Of a stretch of 64,000 nt of DNA, positions 11,369 through 43,851 are shown in pieces (position 1 is the first letter of the stretch; each line of letters begins with the position of its first letter). Origin of the DNA: Pseudomonadota bacterium (GTDB lineage Bacteria > Pseudomonadota > Gammaproteobacteria > Pseudomonadales > Pseudohongiellaceae); NCBI GenBank assembly GCA_027621405.1, contig JAQCBT010000011.1, positions 1 to 64,000 of the forward strand, in the 5' to 3' direction. A program made the translations under genes and the position numbers. The notes below the pieces were generated by a model. That model was given only the letters and a program-made list of their open reading frames with translations. It did no database searches and was not told the origin of the DNA.

Positions 11369-12448
11369 TTATCTGGAACCAGATAATTCCAGGGCAATAC
11401 TAACAAACTGGTCCTTGGTTTCTTCGAATGCCTTGACTAGCAGTGGATCGAAGTGGACGCCACTTCCTTCCAGAATTAATCTGCTGGATTCCTCGAAACT
11501 GAACTTATCCTTATATATACGCTTTGATGTAAGCGCATCGAACACATCTGCAAGCGCCATCACCCTCGCAGCAATTGGTATATCGTCGCCGCTGAGCCCT
11601 TTCGGATAGCCGCTACCATCCCATTTCTCGTGGTGAAAGTGAGCGATATCCATTGCCACCCTAAGAAAATCCAGTGACTCTTGCGCTGACTGATTCTTGA
11701 TGGCGTGCCAGATGGCACTAGCACCCTTTTCCGCATGCTGCTGCATAATCGTCCATTCATCGGCAGTCAGTTTACCGGGCTTACGCAATATATTATCAGG
11801 TATTCCCACTTTCCCGATGTCATGTAAAGGAGACGCCTTCACTATCAAGCGAATCTTTTCTGGCGTTAACTCTCCGCGATATTTTTCATAGGTGGCAAGC
11901 TTCTTCGCAAGCACTTCAACATATCGCTGAGTTCTAAGGATGTGCTCACCTGTTTCCGTATCGCGCATCTCCGCCAGGCTAGCCAGAGCGCGCAAGGCAA
12001 CATCCTGGACAATTTCGTTCTCTCGCATCCTGCGACTGACTTCTTCCTCAAGCCAGGTGTTCTGGTCGGCAAGTATGCTCCTTGCCGCTTTTAGTTGCAG
12101 TTGCGTACGAACCCTTGCGAGCACTACTTCCGGCCGATAAGGCTTTGTAATATAGTCTACTGCGCCCTTCCCCAGCCCTGTTATCTCATCCGCTTCACTG
12201 TCCTTTGCTGTAACAAAAATGACGGGGATGTCTTCTGTGGCCATATTGGCTCTTATTTTTTCGAGCACCTCGTAGCCATCCATGCCAGGCATCATAATAT
12301 CAAGGAGGACAATATCTACTTTAGGCTCAGTATTGGCTATTTTAAGCGCTCTATCTCCGCTATTTGCGACCCTGACGTAGTAGAATGGATCAAGAATCTC
12401 TCCCAATAAGGTCAGGTTTTCAGGTGTGTCATCAACCACAAGAACCAC
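11369..12448 (-). CDS. HD-GYP response regulator, RpfG-like
   Basis: A 359-residue two-domain regulator. The receiver domain (about 1-120) has its phospho-acceptor Asp50 in IVLLDIMMPGMDG and Lys102 in ITKPYRP. The HD-GYP domain carries His209-Asp210 in SPLHDIGKVGIPDN, FHHEKWDGSGYP around 271-282 and IAARVMALADVFDALTS. Proteins of this design are c-di-GMP phosphodiesterases. The reading frame opens with GTG at 12448 immediately after an in-frame TAA and has no evident ribosome site, so the receiver's first strand sits at the very N-terminus. It is first in an operon with the hybrid kinase. Confidence 0.88.
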   Translation of the reverse strand: MVLVVDDTPENLTLLGEILDPFYYVRVANSGDRALKIANTEPKVDIVLLDIMMPGMDGYEVLEKIRANMATEDIPVIFVTAKDSEADEITGLGKGAVDYITKPYRPEVVLARVRTQLQLKAARSILADQNTWLEEEVSRRMRENEIVQDVALRALASLAEMRDTETGEHILRTQRYVEVLAKKLATYEKYRGELTPEKIRLIVKASPLHDIGKVGIPDNILRKPGKLTADEWTIMQQHAEKGASAIWHAIKNQSAQESLDFLRVAMDIAHFHHEKWDGSGYPKGLSGDDIPIAARVMALADVFDALTSKRIYKDKFSFEESSRLILEGSGVHFDPLLVKAFEETKDQFVSIALELSGSR

Positions 12449-28092: not shown

Positions 28093-28893
28093 TCAGTCGA
28101 GAGTTGCCAGCAAGCCCTCACGAGCGGCTTGTTGCTGTTTCTGAATCATCATCTTGTAGCGTTCAGACATCAGATACAGGTGTTGTTCGCTGAGACGGAT
28201 ACTCTCATTAAGAAACGCGAACCTGGGATCTCCCTCGGGCAAGGTCAGTTCGGCAACTTCGAGCCGGGTCTTCAATACCTGCCGCGCCTTGCGCAGGTGT
28301 TCTTCCCGCTTGCCATCAACGTTCACGTTGAAGGCATTGATATGCCAGGAAGATACCTTCTGCAATCCCGTCTCCAGTCGCGGGTCATCAATCTCGTACA
28401 GGCGGGTGTAGATTAGCTCAATATAGCCATAGTGCTCATCGATTGCCTGCCAGTCTTCCAGTTCAATCTGGCTGGCGATCATGCTCTCCAGCAGCGGGAC
28501 CTGGGATTCATGATAGAGGCCATACGCCACCCGGCTGACCTGCCAGGCCTGCTCGAAGAACCGCAGTGCCACTGCATGCGCTCCGGCCTCCTGCTGCTGC
28601 CGGGCCGCCACAACCAGATCTTCCAATTGCTGGTCATCGAAGGGATTAAATTCTTCAGAAAGCAGTTCCGTCGAAACTGAGGGAAGCATCACAGCGGATT
28701 GCTGGGAGTATGCTAGATTGGAAGATGAATCAGGGCTGTTTTCCTGTGCCTGCGCCATGAGACTAATGATCAGCAGCGGCAAGCCGGCGAGCAGGTGTGC
28801 CAGAGAGAGTAAATGAGTTGTGCTCTTTTTGGACTTTCTTGATTCGATAGTAGTCATACTAGATACGCCTGTAATATTTCTAGCATGGACCAT
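28093..28893 (-). CDS. Exported TPR-like helical protein
   Basis: A 266-residue protein (or 254 from the ATG at 28857). A hydrophobic N-terminal segment (LLSLAHLLAGLPLLIISLMAQAQ) suggests export or membrane anchoring. The rest is helical with TPR-like pairs (LEDLVVAARQQQEAGAHAVA, LRFFEQAWQVSRVAYGLYH) and a charged C-terminus. No enzyme motif. It sits alone behind a 425-bp AT-rich region carrying three inverted repeats, so it is probably tightly regulated. Family not recognised. Confidence 0.65.
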   Translation of the reverse strand: MVHARNITGVSSMTTIESRKSKKSTTHLLSLAHLLAGLPLLIISLMAQAQENSPDSSSNLAYSQQSAVMLPSVSTELLSEEFNPFDDQQLEDLVVAARQQQEAGAHAVALRFFEQAWQVSRVAYGLYHESQVPLLESMIASQIELEDWQAIDEHYGYIELIYTRLYEIDDPRLETGLQKVSSWHINAFNVNVDGKREEHLRKARQVLKTRLEVAELTLPEGDPRFAFLNESIRLSEQHLYLMSERYKMMIQKQQQAAREGLLATLD

Positions 28894-29318: not shown

Positions 29319-31337
29319 CTAGCGGTAGGTGCGGTTGGCGATCACAGCTTCCGCCAGTATCAGCAACATCACCAATACGAGGATGTACCACCACATGCGT
29401 TGCGGACGCTCCAACTCCTCGATCATCTGCACCGTCTGCACCTCCCTGGACTGAATAGGGCTGGTATCCGGATTGATCACTGCATCGTAAAGCGTCGCCG
29501 GCGCTACCCGCGCCAGATTGGACTCTTCGGGGAGAAAATTGACCGCGTAGCGGGTTTCCCTACCATCGATGGTCGCCGTGACAAAACCGGGCGTGGTGGC
29601 AGTGAACACAGAATTGTCCACGAGCCGGATGTCCGCACCCGCAGGATCCCTGGCTGCGATTGAGCCTGCACTACCCTGGGTATCGAGATTGATCGTATCT
29701 CCTACCGCATAGGCTCGCTGCCGGAAGTCTGTTTGCACAAGGTGTCGCAGGGTCTCATGCACAAAGGGCAGGTAAAGGCCCTGTAGCGCAAGATTGTTCC
29801 ATTCCAGATCCAAAGTAGAGGCAAACAGCATCACCTTGCCCTGGCCATAGTCCCGCTCCACCAGCGCGGGCTCGGTGTTATCAAACTGCATCAACACATC
29901 GGCATCGTCTTTGGCCACCATGGGCCAGTGCCCCTCAAAGCGTGCCGTCCAGTCACCAACGAGCGGTCGCAGCACCGGATGTCGCCGATCATAGTCCGCG
30001 ATGACCAGGTAGTCATCGATCCTGCCGGTAGGGCGCTGCAGGTCGGCCGGGGTGACTTCCGCGAACTGGCGATTAAACAATTCCGGCTCCACACGGTCAC
30101 CAGGCGCGATTAACAGGCTGCCGCCCTCCTCCACATAGGCCGTTATGGCTTCGGCTTGCCCGTTATTGAGATCGCCCACATTGAGCAGGACTGTCACATC
30201 ACTCTGGCGCAGGGCGGCGGCACTTAACTGATTCGATTCAACACTCTGCAGATCGAACGGAGACGTCTCCGTGCCACCGACCGCGAGCCCGAACCAATGC
30301 CCCTCATCATCGAACCAGTTTTCCGATGCTTCGCCATTTACGACAAGCACGCGGATCTTGGGCAGGACATCGACGGTGAAGTAGAACGCATTGTCATCGA
30401 CGTATTCATCACCGCTGACCCTGACCTCACCGGTATAGGTGCCCTCGGCTTCGAACAGGCTGCTGAAGGTCACTACTTCTTCCGATCTCTCCCCCAGGTC
30501 AACCTGCACCCGATCCACCATCTGGCCATTGATACTCAGGGATACTTCGCCCGCATCCTCGTACACCGTGCCGGTGCTGCGTACCCTGGCCAGGATCTGT
30601 TGTTCTGCGGCATCTTCCAGTAATTGCTCCGGTGAGCGCACATCGGTCAATGCCAGGTTAACTGACTCAGCCGCACCAACGTCTACTGTGGTCAATGCGA
30701 TTCCGGGTGCCAGCTTCCAGGATTCTTCGCCATCCTGCATGCCCGTATCCTGGAAATCGGAAATCAGGTACACGGCTCGATTATCAAACTGCGCTGTCTC
30801 CAGGAGCTGATCCGCCAGGCGTAGATTGGGATAGAAACGCGTGCTGCCATAACCTGGCGCTTCCACATCGTTAATCAATGCCCGGACACTGGCTATATCC
30901 GTATCCAGTTCCCGCACCAGTTGAGCTGAATCGGAAAACGTTACCAGGGCAACCTCATCACCACCACCCATGCGACCAAGGATGTCCAGCGCTTCATCTC
31001 GCGCACGCTCGAAGGTATCTCCATAACGCATACTCATGGACACATCGAGCAGGATAACGGCGGACTGGGGATCGGCATCCACGAGACGTGCCACCGACTG
31101 GTTAAACAACGGGCGGGCAAAAGCTATCACCAGCAGGACGATCACGGCGGCGCGCAAGAGCAGCAATGCGATCTGCTGTAGCTGCTGAAACAGCACCAGC
31201 TTTTTCGATGTCTTCTTCAGAAACCTGATGGTGCTGAACATGACCTTCGGCGGTTTCTCGCGCCGGATCAGGTGTATCGCGATAGGGATCAGTGCGGCCA
31301 GCAGTCCAAGCAAGAATATTGGCGTGAGGAATACCAT
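29319..31337 (-). CDS. BatA-like VWA membrane protein
   Basis: A 672-residue protein with an N-terminal BatA-type domain (two helices in the first 80 residues: LTPIFLLGLLAALIPIAIHL, LLLLRAAVIVLLVIAFARPL), a von Willebrand A domain with a MIDAS motif (ILLDVSMSMRYGD), beta-rich periplasmic domains and a C-terminal helix (YILVLVMLLILAEAVI). The long central part recalls the GATase-like region of BatA-type proteins. It is last in the eight-gene operon, 4 bp after the DUF58 gene. Probably a metal-dependent adhesion or assembly module at the inner membrane. Confidence 0.85.
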   Translation of the reverse strand: MVFLTPIFLLGLLAALIPIAIHLIRREKPPKVMFSTIRFLKKTSKKLVLFQQLQQIALLLLRAAVIVLLVIAFARPLFNQSVARLVDADPQSAVILLDVSMSMRYGDTFERARDEALDILGRMGGGDEVALVTFSDSAQLVRELDTDIASVRALINDVEAPGYGSTRFYPNLRLADQLLETAQFDNRAVYLISDFQDTGMQDGEESWKLAPGIALTTVDVGAAESVNLALTDVRSPEQLLEDAAEQQILARVRSTGTVYEDAGEVSLSINGQMVDRVQVDLGERSEEVVTFSSLFEAEGTYTGEVRVSGDEYVDDNAFYFTVDVLPKIRVLVVNGEASENWFDDEGHWFGLAVGGTETSPFDLQSVESNQLSAAALRQSDVTVLLNVGDLNNGQAEAITAYVEEGGSLLIAPGDRVEPELFNRQFAEVTPADLQRPTGRIDDYLVIADYDRRHPVLRPLVGDWTARFEGHWPMVAKDDADVLMQFDNTEPALVERDYGQGKVMLFASTLDLEWNNLALQGLYLPFVHETLRHLVQTDFRQRAYAVGDTINLDTQGSAGSIAARDPAGADIRLVDNSVFTATTPGFVTATIDGRETRYAVNFLPEESNLARVAPATLYDAVINPDTSPIQSREVQTVQMIEELERPQRMWWYILVLVMLLILAEAVIANRTYR

Positions 31338-31341
31338 GTAC

Positions 31342-32235
31342 CTAGAAACTCCTGGCCCGCTTCGACATATAGGCAGAGAGGGCCTCGTCCAGCGGTTCTG
31401 CCGTGTTCAACAGGCAGTAGTCTACCCCACTACTCTGGCACTTCTTCTTGCAGAAGGCCAAGTATTCATTGAGATTTTCCAGGTAAGCTTCCCGAATCGC
31501 CGCTGGCGAGGTGATGTAAGTTTCCTGGTTTTCCATGTCGATGAATTCAGAGGCTTCATTGAACGGGAACTTGAGCTCGGCTTCGTCCATCAGGTGGAAT
31601 GTAATCACGTCATTGCCCATGCCACGCAGATTCCGCAAGGTGTTGATCACCCGCTCCTCGTCATCCAGCAGATCGCTAATCAGGATCACCATACTCTTCT
31701 TATGCAGGCTGGCTGCCAGGTCTGACAGCGGCTTCACTGCATTGGTCTTGTTCCCCGACTGAACATGGGCCAGGGTCCGCAAGATACGCATCAAATGCGG
31801 CTGCCTGCACTTGGCGGGAATGTATTCCTGCACTTCATCATCGAAGGTGATCAGGCCAACAGCATCGCGCTGGCGCATGATGAAGTAAGCCAGCGCCGAG
31901 GCCAGGGTGATACCGTAGTTCAGTTTGCTCACCGAACCGGAACTGTAGTCCATGGAGGCACTGACATCGAGCAGGATCACCACCCGGACGTTGGTCTCAT
32001 CTTCATACTGCTTGATATAGAACTTGTCGCTGCGTGCGTAGAGCTTCCAGTCAACGTGGCGCATATCATCGCCACGCTGATAGTGACGATAATCATTAAA
32101 CTCGACACTGAAACCGCGATTCGGACTCTTGTGCAATCCTGAAAGAAAACCTTCCACGACGGTGCGTGCCCGTAATTCAAGGTTAGACAGTCCAGAGAGG
32201 ACCGATGGGTCGAGAAAGTTTAGCGATTCTGACAT
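31342..32235 (-). CDS. DUF58 protein
   Basis: A 297-residue cytosolic protein of the DUF58 family: NRGFSVEFNDYRHYQRGDDM, RHVDWKLYARSDKFYIKQYE, then a VWA-like segment with DVSASMDYSSG. No membrane helix. DUF58 proteins are regular partners of MoxR ATPases and carry a degenerate VWA fold. It starts 42 bp after the MoxR gene and precedes the BatA-like gene, the usual moxR-DUF58-batA order. Confidence 0.93.
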   Translation of the reverse strand: MSESLNFLDPSVLSGLSNLELRARTVVEGFLSGLHKSPNRGFSVEFNDYRHYQRGDDMRHVDWKLYARSDKFYIKQYEDETNVRVVILLDVSASMDYSSGSVSKLNYGITLASALAYFIMRQRDAVGLITFDDEVQEYIPAKCRQPHLMRILRTLAHVQSGNKTNAVKPLSDLAASLHKKSMVILISDLLDDEERVINTLRNLRGMGNDVITFHLMDEAELKFPFNEASEFIDMENQETYITSPAAIREAYLENLNEYLAFCKKKCQSSGVDYCLLNTAEPLDEALSAYMSKRARSF

Positions 32236-32277: not shown

Positions 32278-33306
32278 CTAGAGTTCCGAGGTAGGCTCAG
32301 GCACTGCCTGCAGCAATTTCTGGATCACGTGGTCGGTAGTAACTCGTTCTGCTTCGGCATGGAAGTTGAGCAGCACACGATGACGCAATACAGAAGGCGC
32401 CAGGGCTCTCACATCACCATAGGACACGTTATACCGCCCATGCAGTAGTGCCCTTACCTTTCCTGCGAGTATCAGGTTCTGGGATGCGCGAATGCCTGCT
32501 CCCCAACTAACCCAATCCTTCACGAAGTCCGGGGCAGTCTCACTCTGCGGTCGCGAGGCATGTACCAGCCGTACTGCATATTTGATCACCGCTTCCGCAG
32601 CGGGAACCTGGCGCGCGATACGCTGGAATTCCAGGATGTCCTCACCACCCAGTGGGTGGGCAAGGGGATTGTCATGGATCTGGGTAGTCTGGCTTACTAC
32701 CTGCACCTCGTCGGCTTCCGAGAGATAGCCCAATTCAATCTTGAACATGAAGCGATCGAGTTGTGCTTCCGGCAATGGGTAAGTACCTTCCAGTTCAATC
32801 GGGTTCTGGGTTGCCAGTACGAAGAATGGCTTCGACATGGGATAGGTAACACCGGCAGCAGTCACCTGGCGTTCCTCCATGGCTTCCAACAGGGACGACT
32901 GGGTCTTGGGAGGCGTTCGGTTGATCTCATCCGCCAGCAGAATATTGGTAAAGATCGGCCCCTTCACGAACGTCAGTTTGCGCTGGCCGTCCTTCTCTTC
33001 CACAACCTCAGCACCGACCACGTCGGCAGGCATCAGGTCCGGGGTGAACTGGATACGACTGAAATCAACTTGCAGAATATCCGCGACTGTCTTGATCAGC
33101 AGCGTCTTGGCAAGTCCGGGCACACCGGTCACGAGTACGTGACCACCACCGAAGAGTGCAATCAATAACTCATCGATAATGTCTTCCTGGCCTACGATGA
33201 CTTTCTTGATCTCGGCAACAATCTGATCACGACCTTCCTGCATGCGTTTGACCAGGGCAACATCATCCTGATTGTCCATTTCCAATACTTCTTCTGTCTC
33301 TGCCAT
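32278..33306 (-). CDS. MoxR-family AAA+ ATPase
   Basis: A 342-residue ATPase: Walker A GVPGLAKTLL (about residues 60-69), Walker B ILLADEINRTPPKTQSSLLEA (about 122-142; the ATPase Asp-Glu pair), sensor-1 region FFVLATQNPIE, and a C-terminal lid with the sensor-2 Arg. MoxR proteins are chaperone-like ATPases that act on VWA-domain partners. Cytosolic. It is the sixth gene of the operon, 16 bp after the DUF4159 gene. Confidence 0.95.
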   Translation of the reverse strand: MAETEEVLEMDNQDDVALVKRMQEGRDQIVAEIKKVIVGQEDIIDELLIALFGGGHVLVTGVPGLAKTLLIKTVADILQVDFSRIQFTPDLMPADVVGAEVVEEKDGQRKLTFVKGPIFTNILLADEINRTPPKTQSSLLEAMEERQVTAAGVTYPMSKPFFVLATQNPIELEGTYPLPEAQLDRFMFKIELGYLSEADEVQVVSQTTQIHDNPLAHPLGGEDILEFQRIARQVPAAEAVIKYAVRLVHASRPQSETAPDFVKDWVSWGAGIRASQNLILAGKVRALLHGRYNVSYGDVRALAPSVLRHRVLLNFHAEAERVTTDHVIQKLLQAVPEPTSEL

Positions 33307-33322: not shown

Positions 33323-34165
33323 TCAGTGGCTAAAAGCGTAAATGAGAAAATTGATGCCTATCTTGTAAGCTTCATTCGTATATTTCGTTGGATAGGCTTC
33401 ATAGAACGTGTGTTCCCAGCCATCGCCAAGATCCGTGTTGTAATGGGCTGCCATCATGATTCGACCATCATCATCCAGCACCGCATAAATCTCCGGCGGG
33501 TAGTTGGGATCGTCCAGGCTCATGAAGCCCCCGAAGTCCCAGGTCACCATTCGCCCTGGCACCTGCGCCAGTTCATCGATATCGAAGAAGATATGGAAGA
33601 CCTCGTGACTGGTATCCAGCCGCACGATTTCCCGGTCGGGAAAGATTTTCCCTATTTCCATGAACATATCGTCGAGGTGTGGCTCGCCCCAGAAATCGTC
33701 CACCATGATCAGGCCACCCCTGAACATGAATTCCCGCATGGCCTCAATCTCTTCCGGGGTGAAATTGGGTCCGCTGTAGGAGGAGCCAATAGGCACCCGC
33801 TTCCAGTTCATGTAGAGGAAGATGTGCTCATACAGGCGCGGGTCGGTAAGTGCGAGAAATGTATGGTTGCGCGGGTTGGTATCCACATTGGTGTAGCGCT
33901 GCACACCGCGGAGAAAGTTTTCATCCGAATCGGGATAGTCCGTATCCCACCAGCCGCCCCGACGTCGGAAGCCGAAGCCGCCCTGTCCTCCACCGTAGTT
34001 GGTGTACTGCCCTCGCAGCCAGGTGAATTCCGTCACCTCGGTGCCGTAGATGCCGAGATCTTCATTACCACCCAGCCCCTCGGAGAGAGGGAATACCTGC
34101 GCCATTGCCAGCTGGCTACCGAAAAGGCAGGCCATTGCGACAATTGCATGCCGGGTCAGGCTCAC
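33323..34165 (-). CDS. Exported DUF4159 protein
   Basis: A 280-residue protein with a signal peptide (MSLTRHAIVAMACLFGSQLAMA) and a DUF4159 domain: FMFRGGLIMVDDFWGEPHLD, EVFHIFFDIDELAQVPG, MMAAHYNTDLGDGWEH. The GG-x3-DD-x-x-G signature resembles a glutamine-amidotransferase-like fold, although no catalytic Cys is seen at that position. It overlaps the upstream TPR-peptidase gene by four bases and is likely periplasmic. Function unknown; the family recurs beside MoxR genes. Confidence 0.88.
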   Translation of the reverse strand: MSLTRHAIVAMACLFGSQLAMAQVFPLSEGLGGNEDLGIYGTEVTEFTWLRGQYTNYGGGQGGFGFRRRGGWWDTDYPDSDENFLRGVQRYTNVDTNPRNHTFLALTDPRLYEHIFLYMNWKRVPIGSSYSGPNFTPEEIEAMREFMFRGGLIMVDDFWGEPHLDDMFMEIGKIFPDREIVRLDTSHEVFHIFFDIDELAQVPGRMVTWDFGGFMSLDDPNYPPEIYAVLDDDGRIMMAAHYNTDLGDGWEHTFYEAYPTKYTNEAYKIGINFLIYAFSH

Positions 34166-36849
34166 TGGGCGGCTTCCTTGTCTACGGCATCCAGCAGTAA
34201 CTGTTGCGCTCGCTGGAAGCTGGGGGCCTGCTCCAGCGCATAGAGGACATTCTGCTTGGCTTCGGAAAGCTGACCATTGTTCAGGTAGGCTTCTGCAAGG
34301 TTGGTTCGGGCCTCCACCGGATCGGTGATCTCCAGCTTCATCAATACTTCATATTCGGTTACCGCCAACTGCGTATCGTTGATGGTATCGGCATAACGGG
34401 CCTTCAACAGATGTACATCCTGTCGGTACGGATCTACCTGCAGCGCCCGGTCGATGTAGTAGCTGACTCGCTCCATGTTCCCTGCTTCCAGCGCCGCCTC
34501 GGCAAGGATCATGGCCGAACCGTAATCGTGCTGCAGATTCTCCAGCAGTTGCTCAAGCCACTGCAATTGCATTTCACGATTGCCTTCACGCTCATAAATC
34601 TGCGACAGCACGAGTGCCGGGCTCGGGTATCCGGTATAGCTCGGCAGCATCTCGTGGGCAGTTTCCAGGTAAGACCGGGCCTCTTCAAAGGCCTCCTCCT
34701 TGAACAACACGATGCCCAATTGCAGGTAGGCCTGGAAGTCTCGCGGATTTTCCTCGATACGGGAACGCATATGCTGCTTCAGGGAAGCGTTGTTGTATAA
34801 CTCGGCGAGGATCGCGCTGCTGTTCTCCCGAATGCCATGACCATGGCCTTCACCTTCGTCGGGAACATCTTCCGTGTGGACATAGACATTGATCTCTTCC
34901 ACTCGCTGATCGATCCAGCCCCGGAAGCCAGCATCGAATTCACCGATGTCCATGGCGAACACTTCGCTGAAGCGCTCACTATCCTCCTTGATGAAGGCGT
35001 ACTGCTTGACCAGTTCCACCAGCTTATCGAATCCGTATTGACTGGCGATGTAATCAACTACCAGGTAAGACTGGAAGTAAGCGAAACTCAGGTCAGCGTT
35101 GTTGCGAGCACCAGAGAAGCCGGAGTTCAAATCGGCTACCGGCAACAACTTGCCCTGATCTGCTGCACGCACCAGGTCCAGGCCCTGGTCCCGTCCCCAA
35201 TAAGGCCGGCCTTCACGTTCTTCCCACACGGAAATACCCTCGCTGAGCCAGCGCGGCATGCGGTTATCGGTCATCTGCAGGGTGATCACATGCATGAATT
35301 CGTGCCAGACGATTTCCTGCCAGTTCGCGGTCAGGGTGTCGGGCGAGATCAATGTCACCACCTTGCCAAAGCAGATGCCCACCAGCGGTCCGATATCTGG
35401 CAGGCCAACGGAGCGCACAGCGAAGTCCTCCGAATTCTCGAAGACCTCGATCAGGATCGGACCTTCTGGCTCATAGGCATATTTCTCGGTAAGCGTATCC
35501 CAGGCTTCCTCCAATAGCGGCTCAAGATAGGGCCAGAGAATGTCTGCGTCCCGTTCGCTCATATGGACCTTGAAGTGTTCACTCTCCAGGGTGGCGTAGG
35601 TTTCCAGGGTGTCAAAGACCTTGAGCATGTTCGAGGTCAAGACGTTGAACGGATCATTCTCGAAACCGATTTCCAGGTTGGCCTTGCCCTCTTCTTCTTC
35701 ACCCAACCGAATCAGGTTGTTTCCCAGCAGGGTATAGCCTTGCCAGTACTCGGGATCGGCTTCCAGTGCGGCGCGTGCATATGCCACCGCCTCGGTGAAG
35801 CGGTAGTTATTACCGAAAGCATCGGCGATATCACCGAGGAACTGGGCGTTGCCGGGACTGAAGGCCTGCACCTGTTCATAGTAATTGACATACTCGTCCA
35901 TGCGCTCATTGAGGGCCGCCTGGGCCGCGAGGATACTGAGCGTCTTCAGGGATTCAGGATTCAGCGCCAACACCTGGGTGAAGTAGGCCATGGCCTCGTC
36001 TTCGCGCCCGTTCATCATCAGCAGTTGAGCGTAAGTCTCCAGGGCAGGAATAGAATTGGGATTGATGGCGAGGGCGCGCTGCAGGCTCCTCTCGTCGCCC
36101 ACTACCCGGGCTATACCCACCAGCGCAGGCACGTAGCGGTTATTTATTTCCAGTGCCTCCTGGTATCCTCGCTCCGCGTCCGAGGCGTTGTATTTTTCCA
36201 GGAATAAGTCGGCCCACAGGGCATGGGCTTCGAGATTGTTCGGATTGGCCCGGGTCGCCTCGTCGAACAGACTGTTGGCATCATAGAAGTTGCCCATCAA
36301 CCAGCTTGCCAGTGCCACCATGGCCACATCTTCGGAGGTGAAAACCAGGCCACTGTTATAGCGCTGTACGGCCATATCCAGAATGCGATAGGCATCGGAA
36401 CGCTGCCCCTTGAATTGTAGCAGGCTGCCATACTGCACGAGTGTCCGCACTGGTGGCTCGGGCAAGCCTTCCATTACGGCCTCAAATATTGCGAGCGCTT
36501 CAGCGGACTCACCGACAGCTCGCTTGATCTCGGCCAGCTGTGTACTCAACAGCGGGAAGCGGGCGTAGTCATCACCTTCGATGGCATCCGCCACTACACT
36601 CTCGGCTTGCTGATAGTTGCCAGTCATGAAATAGGCGCGACTGGCACCGATGAGTCCATCGGTGCGGTCCAGCCCATCTGTCATCTGGAACATCTCGGCA
36701 GCTGCCGCATAAGAACCACTCAGCAGGAGTTGTTCGGCGCGAAACAGCGCGGAATCGCCAGCCTGGTCCTGATCGTCCTGGGCATATGCCGCCGAGAGCG
36801 GTGCCAGCACCAGGATGCAGGCGATGATTGAACGAAGTGAGTTTCTCAT
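34162..36849 (-). CDS. TPR protein with a gluzincin peptidase domain
   Basis: An 895-residue exported protein (signal peptide MRNSLRSIIACILVLAPLSA). Residues 30-410 are TPR repeats. A zinc-peptidase domain of the peptidase-MA type follows: His516-Glu-Phe-Met-His520 in EIVWHEFMHVIT, with the third-ligand/Glu region in RWLSEGISVWEEREG. More TPRs make up the C-terminal 200 residues. It may cut or bind envelope proteins. It overlaps both neighbours by four bases (C13-like upstream, DUF4159 downstream), so the three periplasmic proteins are coupled. Confidence 0.88.
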   Translation of the reverse strand: MRNSLRSIIACILVLAPLSAAYAQDDQDQAGDSALFRAEQLLLSGSYAAAAEMFQMTDGLDRTDGLIGASRAYFMTGNYQQAESVVADAIEGDDYARFPLLSTQLAEIKRAVGESAEALAIFEAVMEGLPEPPVRTLVQYGSLLQFKGQRSDAYRILDMAVQRYNSGLVFTSEDVAMVALASWLMGNFYDANSLFDEATRANPNNLEAHALWADLFLEKYNASDAERGYQEALEINNRYVPALVGIARVVGDERSLQRALAINPNSIPALETYAQLLMMNGREDEAMAYFTQVLALNPESLKTLSILAAQAALNERMDEYVNYYEQVQAFSPGNAQFLGDIADAFGNNYRFTEAVAYARAALEADPEYWQGYTLLGNNLIRLGEEEEGKANLEIGFENDPFNVLTSNMLKVFDTLETYATLESEHFKVHMSERDADILWPYLEPLLEEAWDTLTEKYAYEPEGPILIEVFENSEDFAVRSVGLPDIGPLVGICFGKVVTLISPDTLTANWQEIVWHEFMHVITLQMTDNRMPRWLSEGISVWEEREGRPYWGRDQGLDLVRAADQGKLLPVADLNSGFSGARNNADLSFAYFQSYLVVDYIASQYGFDKLVELVKQYAFIKEDSERFSEVFAMDIGEFDAGFRGWIDQRVEEINVYVHTEDVPDEGEGHGHGIRENSSAILAELYNNASLKQHMRSRIEENPRDFQAYLQLGIVLFKEEAFEEARSYLETAHEMLPSYTGYPSPALVLSQIYEREGNREMQLQWLEQLLENLQHDYGSAMILAEAALEAGNMERVSYYIDRALQVDPYRQDVHLLKARYADTINDTQLAVTEYEVLMKLEITDPVEARTNLAEAYLNNGQLSEAKQNVLYALEQAPSFQRAQQLLLDAVDKEAAQ

Positions 36850-37904
36850 TGAGTTACCCCATCGGCAGTCGTAGCTGTTTGAGCATTGAATCGTGCAGTG
36901 GCGCGGGCGAGTTCGACCAGCAAGGCTTCCATCTCGCGCCAGTAATCGGCTTCCAGGTATTCGGCCTTGCGACCACGCAGAATAAATACAGATCTCTCCA
37001 GTTCCTGCATGCGTGCCTTGCTTGCCAATGCCTCGGCAGATAATCCGGCAGTGTCATCCACCAAGGTGTCAATGTAGGCGATCTCGGCAAGCAGGCCGTC
37101 GGCTTCATTCATGCCTGGATTCAGGCTGAACATGGAGTCGCCGTTGTCATCCAGCCCGGCGTGCTCCGAAGCCAGCCTGCCCTGCTCGGAATACCATTGC
37201 TCGACGTTGGCCTTGGCGTATTCGAAAGCTTCCAGTATCGAAACCCGGTTGTTCTTGTCCCGGTCACCATTGCGCCCATCCAGAGCCTCGATAAAGTAAC
37301 CGGAGAATACTGGGTCGTAGCGCTCAGATGGAGAGCGAGTAGAAGAGATAACCACTCTGCCCTCACTGGACAGGGATGCCGAGAAGCCATAACTGGCGCT
37401 GGTGGTATTGACGATAACTATGTCCTGCCGATCGAAGCGATCCAGCATGTCGGCGAACTCGATACCCGTGATATCGGGACCAACGATATTGAACTTCGCT
37501 TCCTGCTCCGCACCGGAGCCGTGACCAATCAGGTAGATGGTTATCTGGTCACCAGTATCTACCCGGTCATGCAGCGCCGTCAGCGCCTGTTCGATACCCT
37601 CTCGATCCGTGACGCCATCGATTCTCTCAGCGCCATTGAAGGCGGCTTCGCCATCGTTATACAGCAGGGTTATCGTGTCTGAACTATAGCCATAGTCGCG
37701 GGCCAGTATATCGTGCAGGCTAAGACCCCACTGCCGAAATCGTTCCTCGTTCGTCTCACCAACTGCCGGACCAATCATGATCACGGCATACTTGGTGCTG
37801 TCCGGCCGGTCGAGGAAATAGTCGGCGGCAAGATCCTGGGCGCTTGCTGAAATGGCTGTGCACAGGGTGGCTAGGAACATGATTAGCTTGTTGGTGCTTG
37901 GCAT
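36846..37904 (-). CDS. Caspase-like (C13-like) protein without nucleophile Cys
   Basis: A 352-residue exported protein (signal peptide to SASAQ, residue 23). The fold reads like a C13/legumain-type caspase: YAVIMIGPAVG, then QITIYLIGHGSG with His128. The next strand, where active members have A-C-x-S-G-S, reads DIVIVNTTSASYGFS: Thr167/Thr168 stand in place of Ala-Cys. The catalytic dyad is therefore incomplete and the protein is probably a pseudoenzyme or has other chemistry. The start is the ATG at 37904, which overlaps the upstream stop (TGATG); the longer frame to 37937 has no signal peptide at its end. A helical C-terminal tail follows. Confidence 0.8.
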   Translation of the reverse strand: MPSTNKLIMFLATLCTAISASAQDLAADYFLDRPDSTKYAVIMIGPAVGETNEERFRQWGLSLHDILARDYGYSSDTITLLYNDGEAAFNGAERIDGVTDREGIEQALTALHDRVDTGDQITIYLIGHGSGAEQEAKFNIVGPDITGIEFADMLDRFDRQDIVIVNTTSASYGFSASLSSEGRVVISSTRSPSERYDPVFSGYFIEALDGRNGDRDKNNRVSILEAFEYAKANVEQWYSEQGRLASEHAGLDDNGDSMFSLNPGMNEADGLLAEIAYIDTLVDDTAGLSAEALASKARMQELERSVFILRGRKAEYLEADYWREMEALLVELARATARFNAQTATTADGVTQ

Positions 37905-40207
37905 CACGATAGGCCCTTCAGTCTTCTGGCAACCCAATCCAGGCAGAGCAGCGAGATTAACAGGGCAAGGATCCAGGGCTTATCCCATAGATCGATCTGC
38001 ACTTCCCGCGAATAGGCATTGGGTGTGAACTCGATGGCGCTCGCCAACTGGGAAACGTTATTGATATCGAAATATTGTCCGCCACTGGCATCGGCGATTC
38101 TTGCCAGCAGGCCGCTGTCCCTTTCGGCATTGTTGTACTCGCGCAGTGAAGGAGTCACAACAAATGCCGCACGTTTCTCTGCCGCATCGCTGGCGCCTTC
38201 ACCGGCGGCACTGGCTACATCTACGAGCAGGTTAAACACGCCCTCTTCTTCAACGATGAAACTGCTGCGGTAGACGCCGTCTTCGGAAATATCCCACTCC
38301 ATCGGGGTATCACTCACCTGGTCAAGCGGAGTCGTGGTCTGCATCCACAGAGTGGCGTCATTATCTGGCTCGTAACTGTCATCGAGCACGGTTGCCGTGA
38401 TATTTACCTCGTCACCGACGTTATAGAATTCACGATCGAACTCAACGGTGATGCGCTCGGGTGCGGAGACCGCGGACCAGCGCAGGATCTGCCGCCACAG
38501 GGTTTCCTGTGACTGATCGGCGAATGGCATCATCATCTGCCAGCGCCAGGTGCTGGCAGTGGCGACCACCATGCTGCGTCCGCTACCGTAACGCTGCGAG
38601 GCGATGATAGGCAGCGGTTGGTTCTGGTATTGCAGCAGCGGATGTTCCATCAGCACGGTTGCCCCCGGCTTGATACGGCCGGTGACATAGACGCCCTGTA
38701 ACTCTGGCAACTGCCGCCACAACATGGCGTTCTCATCGTCATCACTGGCAAGTCGCAGCAAGGGTGAGAATTCACCGTTATTGGTGAGGCGAGGATAATA
38801 GAGTTCACCGGTGGGATGGCTACCGCGCCGGATACCGCCACGCAGATGGGAAGGCAGGAAGTTTTCTTCCACCAGTGTCACCGGCAGGATGTCGGCGATG
38901 GGGGTGGTGATAAACTCTTCATCAATCATGCCACTCATGATCAGGCCGCCACCGCGCTCGGCGACAAAATCCTGGATCATCTGCAACTGATCGGCATTGA
39001 AGAAGTTTTCCTCGATATCCCCGAGGATCAAGGCCTCATACTGGTACAGTTCTTCCTTATCTCTCGGAAAGCCTTCACTCAGTTCGGTTGGGGAACGAAT
39101 TCCCTGGCGATAGTATTTCTCTGGACCAGTCTGCAGGTAAGTCGCCAACCTTAGAGAAGTGTCACCTTCTACAGCTCGCCGAATGAACTTGTATTCATTG
39201 CGCGGATGCCCCTCGAGATAAAGAATGTCGAGCGGCTCTTTCTCGCTGTTGTCCACCAGGAAACTATAGGCATTGTTCTGCTCGATGATCTCGCCGGGCT
39301 GCAATTCTACCTGCAGCTCGTAGACGATCGCCTCTTCCCGCTCGGGAGTAAGCTCCATCTCGTAACGGCGGGTCACCCCTTCCGCGCCCAGGGTCACTAC
39401 CTCAGTTTCCACCACGGTCTCACCGTCGAGAATAGAGAGCTGAATTTCCTGACCCTCGAAACCCTGATGCTGAAGACCTACCGCGATAGTAAAGACCGAA
39501 CCTTCCAACACCGTCTCCGCGGCACTGACATCGACGATGCCGATGTCCTGGGGTATCTCGTCCTGACCAACGCCCACGGTAAACACCGGTATCTGACGCG
39601 TACCAAATTCCTGCGCCTTGATTGCTGGATCGATGTCGCTATTGTCTGCACCGTCCGAGATAAGCACGAGTCCGCCGAGAGGCAAACCATTCAATTGGCC
39701 ATCGACATACTCCAGAGCCTGGCTGATAGAAGAGGCCGTACCCGCCTCATTCAATTCGCTTGCATCGGCAATGCGTTCTGCCTGCTTGTCAAAGCGGAAG
39801 CTGCGAATCTGGAAGGACTCCGACAGGTCATCGATTACACCGCGGGAGAACAGGGCCTGACGCATGGCAGCGGTGCGCGATTCGCCACCGGGCATGTCGG
39901 CAATAGCCATGCTCTGTGAATCATCGATTATGACTCCCAGATAGGTTTCCTGTGGCGAGACCTGCAAGCTGGTTACGACAGGGCGCAATAACAGGAACAG
40001 CAATAACACCAGCACCGAAGAACGCAGCGCGATCAGGAAGGCCTTCCAGCCCGGGGTGAGCGGACGGGTAGTCTTGCGATAGGTAAACCAGACCGCCACA
40101 CAGGCAATGATCGCTATCAGGACAAACAGCAACGGACTGATGCCATAGGCGAAGCTTAGACTGCCATCAGTAAATGCGGTAAGTAGAGTGGGTTCCGTGT
40201 ATTGCAT
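37904..40207 (-). CDS. VWA-domain membrane protein, BatB/GATase-like
   Basis: A 767-residue protein with two N-terminal helices (SPLLFVLIAIIACVAVWFTY, FLIALRSSVLVLLLFLLLRP), a VWA-like domain with the MIDAS start DDSQSM, beta-sandwich repeats, a GATase-like central region (ERGGGLIMSGMIDEEF) and a C-terminal helix (WILALLISLLCLDWVARRLK). It is the second gene of the operon: 2 bp after the DUF4175 gene and overlapping the caspase-like gene by one base. It may hold the complex in the membrane. Confidence 0.85.
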   Translation of the reverse strand: MQYTEPTLLTAFTDGSLSFAYGISPLLFVLIAIIACVAVWFTYRKTTRPLTPGWKAFLIALRSSVLVLLLFLLLRPVVTSLQVSPQETYLGVIIDDSQSMAIADMPGGESRTAAMRQALFSRGVIDDLSESFQIRSFRFDKQAERIADASELNEAGTASSISQALEYVDGQLNGLPLGGLVLISDGADNSDIDPAIKAQEFGTRQIPVFTVGVGQDEIPQDIGIVDVSAAETVLEGSVFTIAVGLQHQGFEGQEIQLSILDGETVVETEVVTLGAEGVTRRYEMELTPEREEAIVYELQVELQPGEIIEQNNAYSFLVDNSEKEPLDILYLEGHPRNEYKFIRRAVEGDTSLRLATYLQTGPEKYYRQGIRSPTELSEGFPRDKEELYQYEALILGDIEENFFNADQLQMIQDFVAERGGGLIMSGMIDEEFITTPIADILPVTLVEENFLPSHLRGGIRRGSHPTGELYYPRLTNNGEFSPLLRLASDDDENAMLWRQLPELQGVYVTGRIKPGATVLMEHPLLQYQNQPLPIIASQRYGSGRSMVVATASTWRWQMMMPFADQSQETLWRQILRWSAVSAPERITVEFDREFYNVGDEVNITATVLDDSYEPDNDATLWMQTTTPLDQVSDTPMEWDISEDGVYRSSFIVEEEGVFNLLVDVASAAGEGASDAAEKRAAFVVTPSLREYNNAERDSGLLARIADASGGQYFDINNVSQLASAIEFTPNAYSREVQIDLWDKPWILALLISLLCLDWVARRLKGLS

Positions 40208-40209
40208 TG

Positions 40210-43200
40210 CTACTGGGTCGCGCTATTCGACCCCTGACTCTCTGACAGTACACGATAATATTGCTCAACAAGTTCCCGGTACTGCTCTGGAACTTCTTCG
40301 TCGGCGGCCGCATACAGCTTGTTATTGATTTCGTTAAGTTCAGCCTGGGCGCGCAAAGCTCCCTCCAATTCAAGGATCGGCTGCAACAATTGAGAGAACA
40401 ATTCCGGCTGATTCAGGAAGTCTTCTATATCCTGCTGGGTCAGCTGCTGGCGAATGGAGCGCGCATTACCCCAGGGCATGGCGCTACCATCTGTGGTCAC
40501 ACGACCACCCTGACCAATCTGATCCTGGTTGCCGCCACGGGCACCGCCGAGTTGCTGCCTGCCGCCAGCGCCGGCCTGTTGACCCGACTGGTTGCCTTGC
40601 TGCTGGCCGCCACCCCGAGCCTGATCCTGCAGCTGCTGTTGCAGTTGCTGGGCCAGCTGCTGGGATCTCTGCAGCTGATCACGCATTTCTCGTAGACTGG
40701 GAACTCCGGGGCCCGGCTGTTGGCCAGCCTCGTTGAAGGCCAATGCCTGTTGTTGCAAGGCTTCAATTTGCTCGCGCAAGGCTTCGGCATCATCAGCCGC
40801 TACCTGAGTGGGGTCACCTGCCCCTCTTTGGGCGGAAGGATCGAGAGCGGCAAGTGAAGACGCCAGTTCTTCGAGCCGGTCTTCAATCTCTTCTTCGATA
40901 TCAACCGCCAGGTTCACCATGCCGTTTCTCAGCACCCGGTTACTGGTTTGCATTTCTTCCTGAATCGGGCGCAGGTCTCTCGATGCTTCCTGCGCCTGGG
41001 ACATCAAACGCTGATCCTCACTGCCACCACGGGCAATGATGGCTCGCAGCATGTCTTCAATCTCTTCGAGGTCGCGCTGCTGTTGCTGCTGGGCCTCGAT
41101 CAATTCCTGCAGGCTCTCATCATTACGCACCGACTGCCGGGTCTGCCCCAGGCCTTGCTCGCGCGTAGTTTCTGCCATGGTTTCCTGTAACTGGCGTTGC
41201 TGGTTTAGCAGTTGTTGCCCACGCTGACTCAGGTTCTGCGCCAGCTGGTTTACCGAACTCTCACCCTCTTCACTCAGCTCGCGCTGCTGCTCACGGAGGT
41301 TTTCCAGGGCCTTCTGGCTTCTCGCTGCCGCGATGGAGGCATTGTCGCTCTGGGCGGCTTCCTGCATCTGCTGGGCGGCGCGCTGCAGAGCTGTCTGTTG
41401 CTGCTGCTGTCCGCCACTGCTCTGCGACGAAGATGACGCCTGGGATTGGGACTGTGATTGCGATTGTGACTGTGAGCTGCTCTGGGACTGCGACTGGGAG
41501 CGCTGCTGGCTATTGGACATCTGTTGTGCCAACTGCTGGACTTCCTGGCTCAGCTGTTCCTGCTGACGCATCAGTCGCTCCAGTTCACGACGCTTCTGTT
41601 CTTCGGTCATCTGGTCTTCACGTCGAGCCAGATTGCGCTGGGCTCTGGTCAGGCTTTCCTGGCGTCGGGCCAGTTCTTCCAGCTTATTGACCTCTTCCTG
41701 GTTCTGCTGCGAGCCGCCACCACGACTATTGGGCGTTTCGTAACGGTTCTCCAACTGCCCCATTTCCATCTCAAACAATTCACGCAGGTCTTCACGTTCC
41801 TGCTGGGCTCCGCCGCCGCCACCGCCACCGCCACCGTTCTGCATGCTGATGTTGGTGCGGTTGATGCTCGCTTCTGCCTTGAGGATGTATTGCAAGGCCA
41901 ACTGCTCAGGTTGCAGGGCGCTGGTAATCTGCTCCAGCTCCAGTTCATTGGCAGCCAGATTCATCTGATCGATAGCCAGTGAAAGGTTTTCAACCGCGGC
42001 ATCATAAGTATCGTCAGAGAAATTAAGACGCTCCGCCAGACGATCGATAGACATACGGGCACGACCCGTCGCCTCACGTTGCGACTCGGCAATAATCTCC
42101 GCGTCGCTGGCAAACTCTTCCTGTGTAACCTGGCTCTGCCTGTTACGCAGCTTCCAGGTGGCGGCAATAATATCCTTTTGGATAGAAACCAGGGCACTGC
42201 TGTCTCCTCCCTGGCCACCGCCACCACCGCCACCACCGCCGCTCATACCGGGGTTGCGACGGAATTCCTGGTCGGTGGGAATGATCTGCAGGAAGTAAAT
42301 ATCGGATATCACCTGGGCAGGCCCGTCCAGTCCATTATTGTCTGCGAGGGTCAGGAAATAACTGACAAAATCACCCGGCTCAACATCCAGGTCTTCCAGG
42401 TAAATCAGTTCGCTGCCGGAAACGGAGCGCATATTGGGCTCGCGCAGGAAATCCACCTGCACTTCATCCGAACCCACCACGCTGTAATTCAGTTCAAACT
42501 GGCTCAGGCCATAATCGTCACTGGCATCCACTTCCAGCACCACTTCCTCGAGGGGCATGACCTCCTGGTCGCGACCGGGTCGCTTCAATGCCAGTTCAGG
42601 AGGCGTGTCCTCAATGGCACGAATGAAATAGTCCAGTGGATTTTGGCTCTGCAGGCCATCGAAGTCGGTGGCACGAATGCGATAGACACCGTCGGCGCCG
42701 ACAGTAAATGCTGCCGTACCCGTACTACCATTGATGACAACAGGAATGTCCGCATAATTGCTTATCACATTGCCGTCTTCATCGAAGCTCTCGTCGAACT
42801 CGAGCACGGCTTCCCTTACAGCCTTGTTAAAGGCGATATTCAATTCCACCCGGGTACCTTCCGGCACTACCATGTCACCGCTGTCTTCTTCCAGCAGGTC
42901 TTCGATACCGGTGTAATCAGGGTAATCCAGCGCCAGGTCGATCTGTTCTACCTGAGGCAGGTCAAACAGGCTGATGCGATACTGCTGCGAGTTCTGCTCA
43001 CCCCGTTCATTAAAGGCAATATAGTAAGTCGTGTCTTCCTGCAGCGATGGCAGGAAATAGCTATAGGTGGCACTGTCGCTGCCACTGCCATCCCGGTTCA
43101 TGGACACGTCCCGCCAGTTCACATTGTCATTCTGCAGGCGCAGGTTGATGGCGTCAGGTTGGGCATTGATTACCCGGGCGATGATGGTGATGCTGTCACC

Positions 43201-43851
43201 ACGCTGCATCTCGACATCACCGGGCTCTACACTGATCTCGATATCCGGCAACACCTCTACGATCGGGATGGGCTCGTTTATAGCAAAGGGCCAGGCCAGT
43301 CGCGAGCCGGCATTGATCAGCGCTTCAGAGCTGATGAACAGGGCCATTACGGCCAACGCGACAGCCACGGCGGAGGCCAGGCTTATCCAGGAGGTACGTG
43401 CCGGAGCGATCGTCTCCACATGCCGCTGTTGCTGCTGAACATGGACCTGGGCATCTTGCCAGAGTTGGCGGATGAACTGCTGGGACACACCCGCGCGGCC
43501 GTTCTGCAGATCGGCCTCGCTAAATTCCAGCGAGGTGAGCAGCCGCTGCTCCAGGTCAGGAATATGGTCTTCTACATAGTGGGCCAGAACCTTGTCGTTG
43601 CTGTGACGCCTGCCGAGAATGCGAATGAAATTCCACACTAGTGCCCCTGTCGCCAGCAGGGTAAACCCGAACAGCAGGATACTTCCCAGCTTGCCCGGTT
43701 CCAGCCACAGGGCAACAGCAGCCACCGCCAGGACCAGGGCTGAAAATTCGATTACAAGAAAACTGGCCTGTTTGAGGAGAAACAGGTTGCTGCGTCGGCG
43801 ACGCAAGTGTTGGAGGGTTTCGCGGAGGCTATCAAATGTAGGTGTGGACAT
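40210..43851 (-). CDS. DUF4175 giant membrane protein, Gln/Ser-rich
   Basis: A 1213-residue protein. Two helices near residues 28-75, a third at about 155-180, then beta-rich periplasmic repeats (200-540) and a long helical, Gln-rich second half. DUF4175-type segments include LLTSLEFSEADLQNGRAGVS and RPGRDQEVMPLEEVVLEVDA. Glycine runs occur near 540 and 715, and a Ser-Gln dipeptide tract at about 775-820 (positions 41400-41520). The C-terminus holds many QQLQQQ helices. It is the first gene of the eight-gene operon; family members usually accompany MoxR clusters. Confidence 0.85.
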   Translation of the reverse strand: MSTPTFDSLRETLQHLRRRRSNLFLLKQASFLVIEFSALVLAVAAVALWLEPGKLGSILLFGFTLLATGALVWNFIRILGRRHSNDKVLAHYVEDHIPDLEQRLLTSLEFSEADLQNGRAGVSQQFIRQLWQDAQVHVQQQQRHVETIAPARTSWISLASAVAVALAVMALFISSEALINAGSRLAWPFAINEPIPIVEVLPDIEISVEPGDVEMQRGDSITIIARVINAQPDAINLRLQNDNVNWRDVSMNRDGSGSDSATYSYFLPSLQEDTTYYIAFNERGEQNSQQYRISLFDLPQVEQIDLALDYPDYTGIEDLLEEDSGDMVVPEGTRVELNIAFNKAVREAVLEFDESFDEDGNVISNYADIPVVINGSTGTAAFTVGADGVYRIRATDFDGLQSQNPLDYFIRAIEDTPPELALKRPGRDQEVMPLEEVVLEVDASDDYGLSQFELNYSVVGSDEVQVDFLREPNMRSVSGSELIYLEDLDVEPGDFVSYFLTLADNNGLDGPAQVISDIYFLQIIPTDQEFRRNPGMSGGGGGGGGGQGGDSSALVSIQKDIIAATWKLRNRQSQVTQEEFASDAEIIAESQREATGRARMSIDRLAERLNFSDDTYDAAVENLSLAIDQMNLAANELELEQITSALQPEQLALQYILKAEASINRTNISMQNGGGGGGGGGAQQEREDLRELFEMEMGQLENRYETPNSRGGGSQQNQEEVNKLEELARRQESLTRAQRNLARREDQMTEEQKRRELERLMRQQEQLSQEVQQLAQQMSNSQQRSQSQSQSSSQSQSQSQSQSQASSSSQSSGGQQQQQTALQRAAQQMQEAAQSDNASIAAARSQKALENLREQQRELSEEGESSVNQLAQNLSQRGQQLLNQQRQLQETMAETTREQGLGQTRQSVRNDESLQELIEAQQQQQRDLEEIEDMLRAIIARGGSEDQRLMSQAQEASRDLRPIQEEMQTSNRVLRNGMVNLAVDIEEEIEDRLEELASSLAALDPSAQRGAGDPTQVAADDAEALREQIEALQQQALAFNEAGQQPGPGVPSLREMRDQLQRSQQLAQQLQQQLQDQARGGGQQQGNQSGQQAGAGGRQQLGGARGGNQDQIGQGGRVTTDGSAMPWGNARSIRQQLTQQDIEDFLNQPELFSQLLQPILELEGALRAQAELNEINNKLYAAADEEVPEQYRELVEQYYRVLSESQGSNSATQ
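41400..41520 (-). repeat. Ser-Gln dipeptide tract in the DUF4175 gene
   Basis: About 40 codons of alternating Ser and Gln with short Ser and Gln runs, encoded by imperfect 6-bp DNA repeats. Likely disordered and prone to length change. Confidence 0.75.

Follow-up and report, generated by a model that had tools for sequence, protein, structure and literature searches.

Enzymes of peptidase clan CD carry a histidine after strand 3 of their fold and a cysteine after strand 4 (PMC4357240; this and the other papers cited below are quoted from excerpts). The dyad is substituted in pseudo-orthocaspases, for which the combinations YS, YA, FS, QC and HA, together with YG, YN and HG in cyanobacteria, are described (PMC6426788), and serine is the commonest substitute for the cysteine (PMC3501461). 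Caspase domains also occupy the effector position of MoxR-vWA conflict systems, in which about 70% of them are described as inactive (PMC7159879). MoxR ATPases are chaperone-like and aid the maturation of dedicated complexes (PMC3893208). Here we describe CASP, an exported-looking protein with a predicted C13/caspase fold that is encoded beside MoxR and VWA genes on a 64,000-nt stretch of DNA from a Pseudomonadota bacterium (GCA_027621405.1, contig JAQCBT010000011.1, positions 1 to 64,000 of the forward strand; hereafter the window). CASP and its relatives keep the histidine (His128) and carry serine (Ser169) at the cysteine position; the family is a new combination, not a new fold. The explanation we favour, with roughly even confidence, is that CASP is a periplasmic client-binding subunit that has a caspase fold, lacks efficient catalysis and works with the metallopeptidase encoded by the next gene.

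Predicted fold and the residue at the cysteine position

CASP is a real, exported-looking open reading frame (ORF) under purifying selection. The ratio of nonsynonymous to synonymous substitution rates (dN/dS) is 0.04-0.20 in the 25 closest pairs listed, with a median of 0.16 over 160 pairs, and this low ratio, together with two structure models that match legumain, indicates that it is not a chance ORF. The window protein has no match above cut-off in Pfam or NCBIfam (12.4 bits against the C13 family PF01650, where the gathering cut-off is 22.8), which would suit a decaying pseudogene or a mis-called ORF; given the dN/dS values and conservation of the protein in two phyla, this explanation is hardly credible. 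Export, which a preliminary description of this DNA had proposed from a signal peptide, is likely, as the N-terminus reads as signal-peptide-like.

We obtained two AlphaFold2 models, the first from 36 sequences comprising the window protein and relatives (mean predicted local distance difference test score, pLDDT, 63.7; predicted template modelling score, pTM, 0.61), and the second of the CASP domain alone from 45 sequences (pLDDT 71.0, pTM 0.77). In both models, strands and helices alternate in the order typical of the caspase fold. Legumain is the top match of VIA-align for both, with Z 15.0 (3.2 Å over 189 residues) and Z 15.9 (3.1 Å over 195 residues), where these comparisons yield ranges and scores and not a residue-by-residue superposition on legumain. 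Metacaspase-4 follows within one Z of legumain (14.4 and 15.4 for the first and second model), GPI-transamidase subunit K (13.8 and 14.6) and plant legumains are likewise close behind, and caspases score about 12 with the first model, whose fold neighbours include transamidase subunits and peptide ligases. Foldseek gave a weak result for the first model, with one match at E <= 0.001 and VWA domains and others close behind, and 34 matches at that threshold for the second. In the domain model, His128 (model residue 105) lies after strand 3 (97-103) and Ser169 (model residue 146) after strand 4 (138-143). The core sheet and helices, as modelled with moderate confidence, fit the clan CD fold, and the caspase or C13 fold foreseen in the preliminary description agrees with both models.

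That description had also recognized an HGSG motif containing His128, and had read the stretch VNTTSASYG as the place of the nucleophile, with threonine substituting for the cysteine. Both motifs are present, HGSG starting at His128 (37512-37523) and VNTTSASYG spanning residues 165-173 (37386-37412), and the cysteine is indeed missing; the threonine is not its substitute. A direct phmmer search of CASP against PDB chains returned only an irrelevant match (E 0.48), so a family profile was needed. With a profile of 25 CASP-family sequences, the best PDB sequence match by hmmsearch is Arabidopsis metacaspase-4 (E 2.4e-6), in which Ser169 pairs with Cys139. Alignment of the family by hhalign with 11 Cys-type C13 proteins, 10 from the order of the window and one from its class, again places Ser169 on the cysteine (probability 99.3, E 3.1e-20), and by this profile comparison the CASP family is homologous to C13. 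Thr168 pairs in the profile alignments with the alanine or serine directly before the catalytic cysteine. We rejected it as a nucleophile on account of this position and because it is replaced by serine, glycine or alanine in 8 of 75 family sequences. A nucleophilic cysteine elsewhere in a divergent member, the other possibility raised at the time, was also rejected: Cys15, the sole cysteine of CASP, falls within the signal-peptide-like N-terminus, and the presumed mature protein is free of cysteine.

Of the 25 family members in this profile, 10 match PF01650 at E <= 1 (best 1.3e-7), six weakly match NCBIfam caspase_w_EACC1 (best E 1.7e-5) and one matches Pfam C14 (E 0.057); divergent orthologues show the motif S-[AST]-S-G in comparison with C-x-S-G of C13. 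There were also stray matches to Abhydrolase_6 (1/25, 3.3e-5) and YbjN (2/25, 7.8e-4).

Conservation and possible roles of His128 and Ser169

Conservation was assessed in 75 distinct sequences including the window protein, which remained from 88 after removal of 13 duplicates. They are not independent, as 56 belong to one clade (the genus of the window and close relatives) and 19 are more distant. Left out were the window protein met again (L001), a spurious match (L002), a contig-end fragment (L022), a broken frame (L069), two Cys-type or very weak matches (L085 and L086) and the second piece of a gene already represented by L084 (L087); the stretches L152-L160 and L164 are wider extracts of loci that the count already includes. 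His128, Gly129, Asn139, Asp144, Thr189, Asp119, Asp214, Glu225 and Glu247 are invariant. The histidine followed by glycine that marks the end of strand 3 in clan CD is therefore present throughout, and at the end of strand 4, where the clan has its catalytic cysteine, there is serine in 74 sequences, asparagine in one and cysteine in none. Ser171 is likewise found in 74 of the 75. Thr168, whose fixation the preliminary description had proposed to check, occurs in 67, and the excluded L022 and L069 also show NTTSASYG.

Ser169 is encoded by AGY codons in 58 sequences and by TCN codons in 16. The tree shows at least three changes from one class to the other, as counted by a quick tree method with the single non-serine row treated as missing. 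Single-base routes between AGY and TCN serine codons pass through a non-serine codon. The repeated return to serine across codon classes thus points to selection on serine itself. As a control, we searched 200 genomes of the phylum with PF01650 and fetched 30 loci, finding C-x-S-G in 27, no motif in two, one spurious match and no serine form; this count relies on a regular expression, not an alignment, which prefers cysteine where there are several candidates, although only L206 had more than one. The serine family stands apart from five Cys-type C13 rows in the tree with support of 100/100, where branches are long, the root is at the midpoint and the deep order within the serine clade was not used.

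These observations could be explained if CASP were an active Ser-His hydrolase or transpeptidase, in which Ser169 is the nucleophile, His128 serves as base and acid, and the metallopeptidase receives the product. The preliminary description did not consider this reading, which we regard as possible but not probable. It would account for the invariance of His128, Gly129, Asn139, Asp144 and Thr189, for the near-fixation of Ser169 through both codon classes, for the retention of S-x-S where ordinary C13 loci show C-x-S-G, and for the presence of transamidase subunits and peptide ligases among the fold neighbours. Against it stands the sole exception in the set, L078, which has Asn169 and Gly171, keeps His128 and lies in an intact operon (seen in the longer stretch L164 of genome G134); this argues against indispensable catalysis. 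We know of no serine peptidase in clan CD, which also counts against it. In addition, substitution of the cysteine in classical cysteine peptidases invariably lowers or abolishes activity, according to the excerpt of PMC4671257. An extension of the same idea, which we put forward more tentatively still, is that the family forms a first branch of the caspase/legumain clan to use serine, with a Ser169-His128 dyad, perhaps aided by Asn139 or Asp144, that would cleave or ligate exported clients, the MoxR/VWA proteins and the TPR-metallopeptidase completing a two-protease pathway of envelope quality control or maturation.

A further explanation, which we think improbable, is that histidine and serine are retained for fold stability or for binding of a small ligand or metal, CASP being a structural part of an envelope complex whose ancestral cleft is unused. 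Asp119, Asn139, Asp144, Thr189, Asp214, Glu225 and Glu247 are as invariant as His128, and the predicted helical C-terminal arm might dock to such a complex, but a conserved pair that coincides precisely with the active-site positions following strands 3 and 4 is not what this explanation would lead one to expect.

We favour the client-binding reading because of the natural Asn169/Gly171 member, the precedent of SERA5 (discussed below) and the many inactive caspase domains of MoxR-vWA systems. According to this reading, CASP would belong to an envelope chaperone module built of MoxR, DUF58 and VWA proteins, and would have an ancestor in common with C13/C14-type Cys-His peptidases (such as legumain, metacaspase and GPI8-like proteins); the nucleophile position would have changed from cysteine to serine early in the family, while the histidine and its adjacent glycine were retained. 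The cleft may still take a peptide in extended form; His128 and Ser169 would hydrogen-bond a peptide carbonyl, with no efficient cleavage. CASP would then pass the bound client on to the TPR-HExxH metallopeptidase, whose gene comes next and overlaps that of CASP, and to VWA membrane proteins, which a cytoplasmic MoxR/DUF58 pair may drive. Both CASP and the metallopeptidase have export-like N-termini and probably act outside the inner membrane. The pseudo-peptidase scaffold of the preliminary description remains the likeliest account, although conservation of the histidine and the serine leaves room for the hydrolase.

Several points weigh against the binding subunit. Pseudo-orthocaspases mostly change both residues, YS, YA and FS being common (PMC6426788), and unlike them the CASP family keeps His128 in every sequence. 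The near-fixation of Ser169, with its codon-class switches, goes beyond what is expected of a merely tolerated residue. The confidence of the models is moderate, as the mean pLDDT values given above indicate, and the loop just after His128 has pLDDT below 50 in both. Finally, binding, location and interaction of CASP are predictions from sequence and models.

Operon and distribution

The features of the locus are listed in Table 1. The order of the cluster is DUF4175, VWA/GATase-like, CASP, TPR-metallopeptidase, DUF4159, MoxR, DUF58 and BatA-like. An active-looking metallopeptidase was expected in the next gene, and its HEFMH motif bears this out.

Table 1. CASP and its gene cluster in the window
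Feature	Position	Strand	Basis or remark
DUF4175-type protein, first cluster gene in the window	40210..43851	-	Pfam
VWA (below Pfam cut-off) and GATase1_like protein, hydrophobic N-terminal segments	37904..40207	-	stop overlaps CASP start
CASP, exported-looking C13/caspase-fold protein with His128/Ser169	36846..37904	-	352 amino acids and stop; sequence, models, alignments
Signal-peptide-like N-terminus, residues 1-23, A-S-A before the likely cleavage site	37836..37904	-	sequence reading
Caspase/legumain-like domain, about residues 36-245	37170..37799	-	AlphaFold2 models and fold matches
Codon of His128, the catalytic-His equivalent; invariant Gly129 comes next	37521..37523	-	75/75
Ser169 codon AGC (catalytic-Cys equivalent)	37398..37400	-	Ser in 74/75
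C-terminal helix pair, about residues 290-347, possible docking arm	36864..37037	-	AlphaFold2 model, low to medium confidence
TPR protein with Peptidase_MA_2 (HEFMH, from residue 516), signal-peptide-like start	34162..36849	-	overlaps CASP stop by 4 bases
DUF4159 protein, signal-peptide-like start	33323..34165	-	
MoxR-type AAA_3 ATPase	32278..33306	-	
DUF58/VWA protein	31342..32235	-	
BatA-like protein: BatA N-terminal region, VWA, GATase1_like	29319..31337	-	

The neighbourhood of CASP is conserved. Among matched operon genes, the TPR-metallopeptidase follows CASP in 48 of 48 named loci (two of them from one assembly, and one, L069, with a broken CASP frame). The VWA/GATase gene precedes CASP in 46 of them, and in the two that lack it the locus starts at a contig end. 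Of 19 stretches from further genomes, 16 contain CASP in its operon; both neighbours are present in 15 of these, and the remaining one is truncated where its contig starts. Two of the three stretches without CASP are Cys-type C13 loci lacking the operon, and the third is a spurious match. The 16 come from six families of the class (f1, f25, f63, f139, f165 and f191). In some families DUF4159 and DUF4175 lie elsewhere in the cluster or are not seen in the stretch, and the trio of VWA/GATase, CASP and metallopeptidase stays together. Of 66 neighbouring metallopeptidases, 65 carry HExxH, and the one without it is cut by a contig end.

Adjacent genes of the window give AAA_3, DUF58, BatA N-terminal and VWA matches, identifying the MoxR, DUF58 and BatA-type VWA genes; the MoxR protein scores 43.2 bits with bpMoxR vs 212.4 bits with AAA_3. 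Pfam named no VMAP, iSTAND, FtsH or beta-propeller domain in the eight operon proteins scanned. A phage or defence origin of CASP was considered and rejected: there was no phage match, seven pattern-matching stretches of viral contigs encode no relative, and a PADLOC scan of seven proteins gave nothing for CASP and only weak matches for MoxR.

GATase1_like stretches stand beside VWA in two cluster proteins, the VWA of the first of them being below cut-off (Table 1). On the same strand, 3' of the operon, is an exported-looking ORF of 266 amino acids (28093-28893) to which Pfam gives no match at E 1e-5; in most relatives the available locus stops near this position or short of it. Elsewhere in the window, a PAS-rich hybrid histidine kinase (7103-11296) is encoded beside a response regulator with an HD domain (11369-12448).

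Within the window's genus, 20 of 24 other genomes gave a CASP match, the four misses being 69-89% complete; none of 13 genomes of other families in the same survey did. The order search matched 16 of 292 other genomes, two of them weakly (G308, and G081 with a Cys-type protein), leaving 14 true cases. The class search gave six of 368 other genomes at E 1e-58 or better, the rest being weak (2.5e-12 or worse), and the phylum search added no strong CASP match, its hits being Cys-type C13 proteins and further weak ones. The metallopeptidase as query (E <= 1e-40) matched seven of 144 other genomes from the order, and the VWA/GATase protein (E <= 1e-20) three of 273 other genomes from the class; every matching genome is CASP-positive. 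A candidate second copy in the window's own genome (G000:C45:11737-11994, E 1e-4) was discarded, with no alignment at the HG and S-x-S motifs.

The second phylum is Gemmatimonadota, an occurrence that rests on one record: the 1.1-Mb megaplasmid of Gemmatirosa kalamazoonensis (NZ_CP007129.1) has the same cluster with a Ser-type CASP motif, D-A-S-S-A-S. In the excerpt of PMC3501461, the only Gemmatimonadetes metacaspase then known is said to be without the dyad, and this protein may or may not belong to the CASP family. Separately, in ten loci of one bacterial family, perhaps Pseudomonas-like (L118-L126 and L130; f21), a Cys-type C13 domain is C-terminal in proteins of about 600 amino acids with many short Gly-rich repeats.

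Comparison with known systems

A clan CD cysteine position that is near-fixed as serine, with the histidine retained, is a natural experiment between serine chemistry and conversion to a binding protein, and the Asn169/Gly171 member offers a way to see in nature if the serine is important. Either answer would provide a handle on the role of a caspase-fold protein and a metallopeptidase in a MoxR/DUF58/BatA-like operon in which two genes are still named DUF4159 and DUF4175. Among the literature matches listed, judged by title and the start of the abstract, none describes a His-Ser family in a MoxR operon, and DUF4159 and DUF4175 are absent from the nine papers in which they were looked for.

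The closest relatives in fold are the C13 peptidases (legumain, PIG-K/GPI8; PF01650), the best structural match, with which CASP shares the His-Gly after strand 3, the second serine of C-x-S-G and a similar distance from histidine to nucleophile position (41 residues, vs 43 in the Cys-type L118). It differs from them in having serine for cysteine (asparagine once), a sub-cut-off Pfam score, C-terminal helices and a MoxR/VWA operon. Metacaspases and orthocaspases (C14) provide the best PDB match of the CASP profile and the weak caspase_w_EACC1 matches, whereas CASP has no cysteine there and scarcely matches Pfam C14. Pseudo-orthocaspases are prokaryotic caspase-fold proteins with a substituted dyad, often serine for cysteine, and the CASP dyad is likewise substituted, but the CASP family matches Pfam C14 only weakly; pseudo-orthocaspases are mostly from cyanobacteria and alphaproteobacteria, and a fixed His-Ser family is not among the dyads described in the excerpt of PMC6426788.

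SERA5 of Plasmodium (PMC4671257) is a counterpart at the active site, as it has a natural serine at the nucleophile position, keeps its histidine and is indispensable yet non-enzymatic, but it has a papain fold and belongs to a different kind of organism. In gene context, CASP resembles the MoxR-vWA ternary conflict systems (PMC7159879), which associate MoxR and VWA with caspase-like, often inactive domains. In those systems the caspase domain is mostly fused to vWA or VMAP and occasionally stands alone; CASP is a separate exported-looking protein encoded beside DUF58, BatA-like, DUF4159, DUF4175 and TPR-metallopeptidase genes. The window cluster also shares MoxR, DUF58 and BatA-like VWA genes with the Bat (Bacteroides aerotolerance)/MoxR operons, to which it adds genes for the caspase-fold protein, the TPR-metallopeptidase, DUF4159 and DUF4175.

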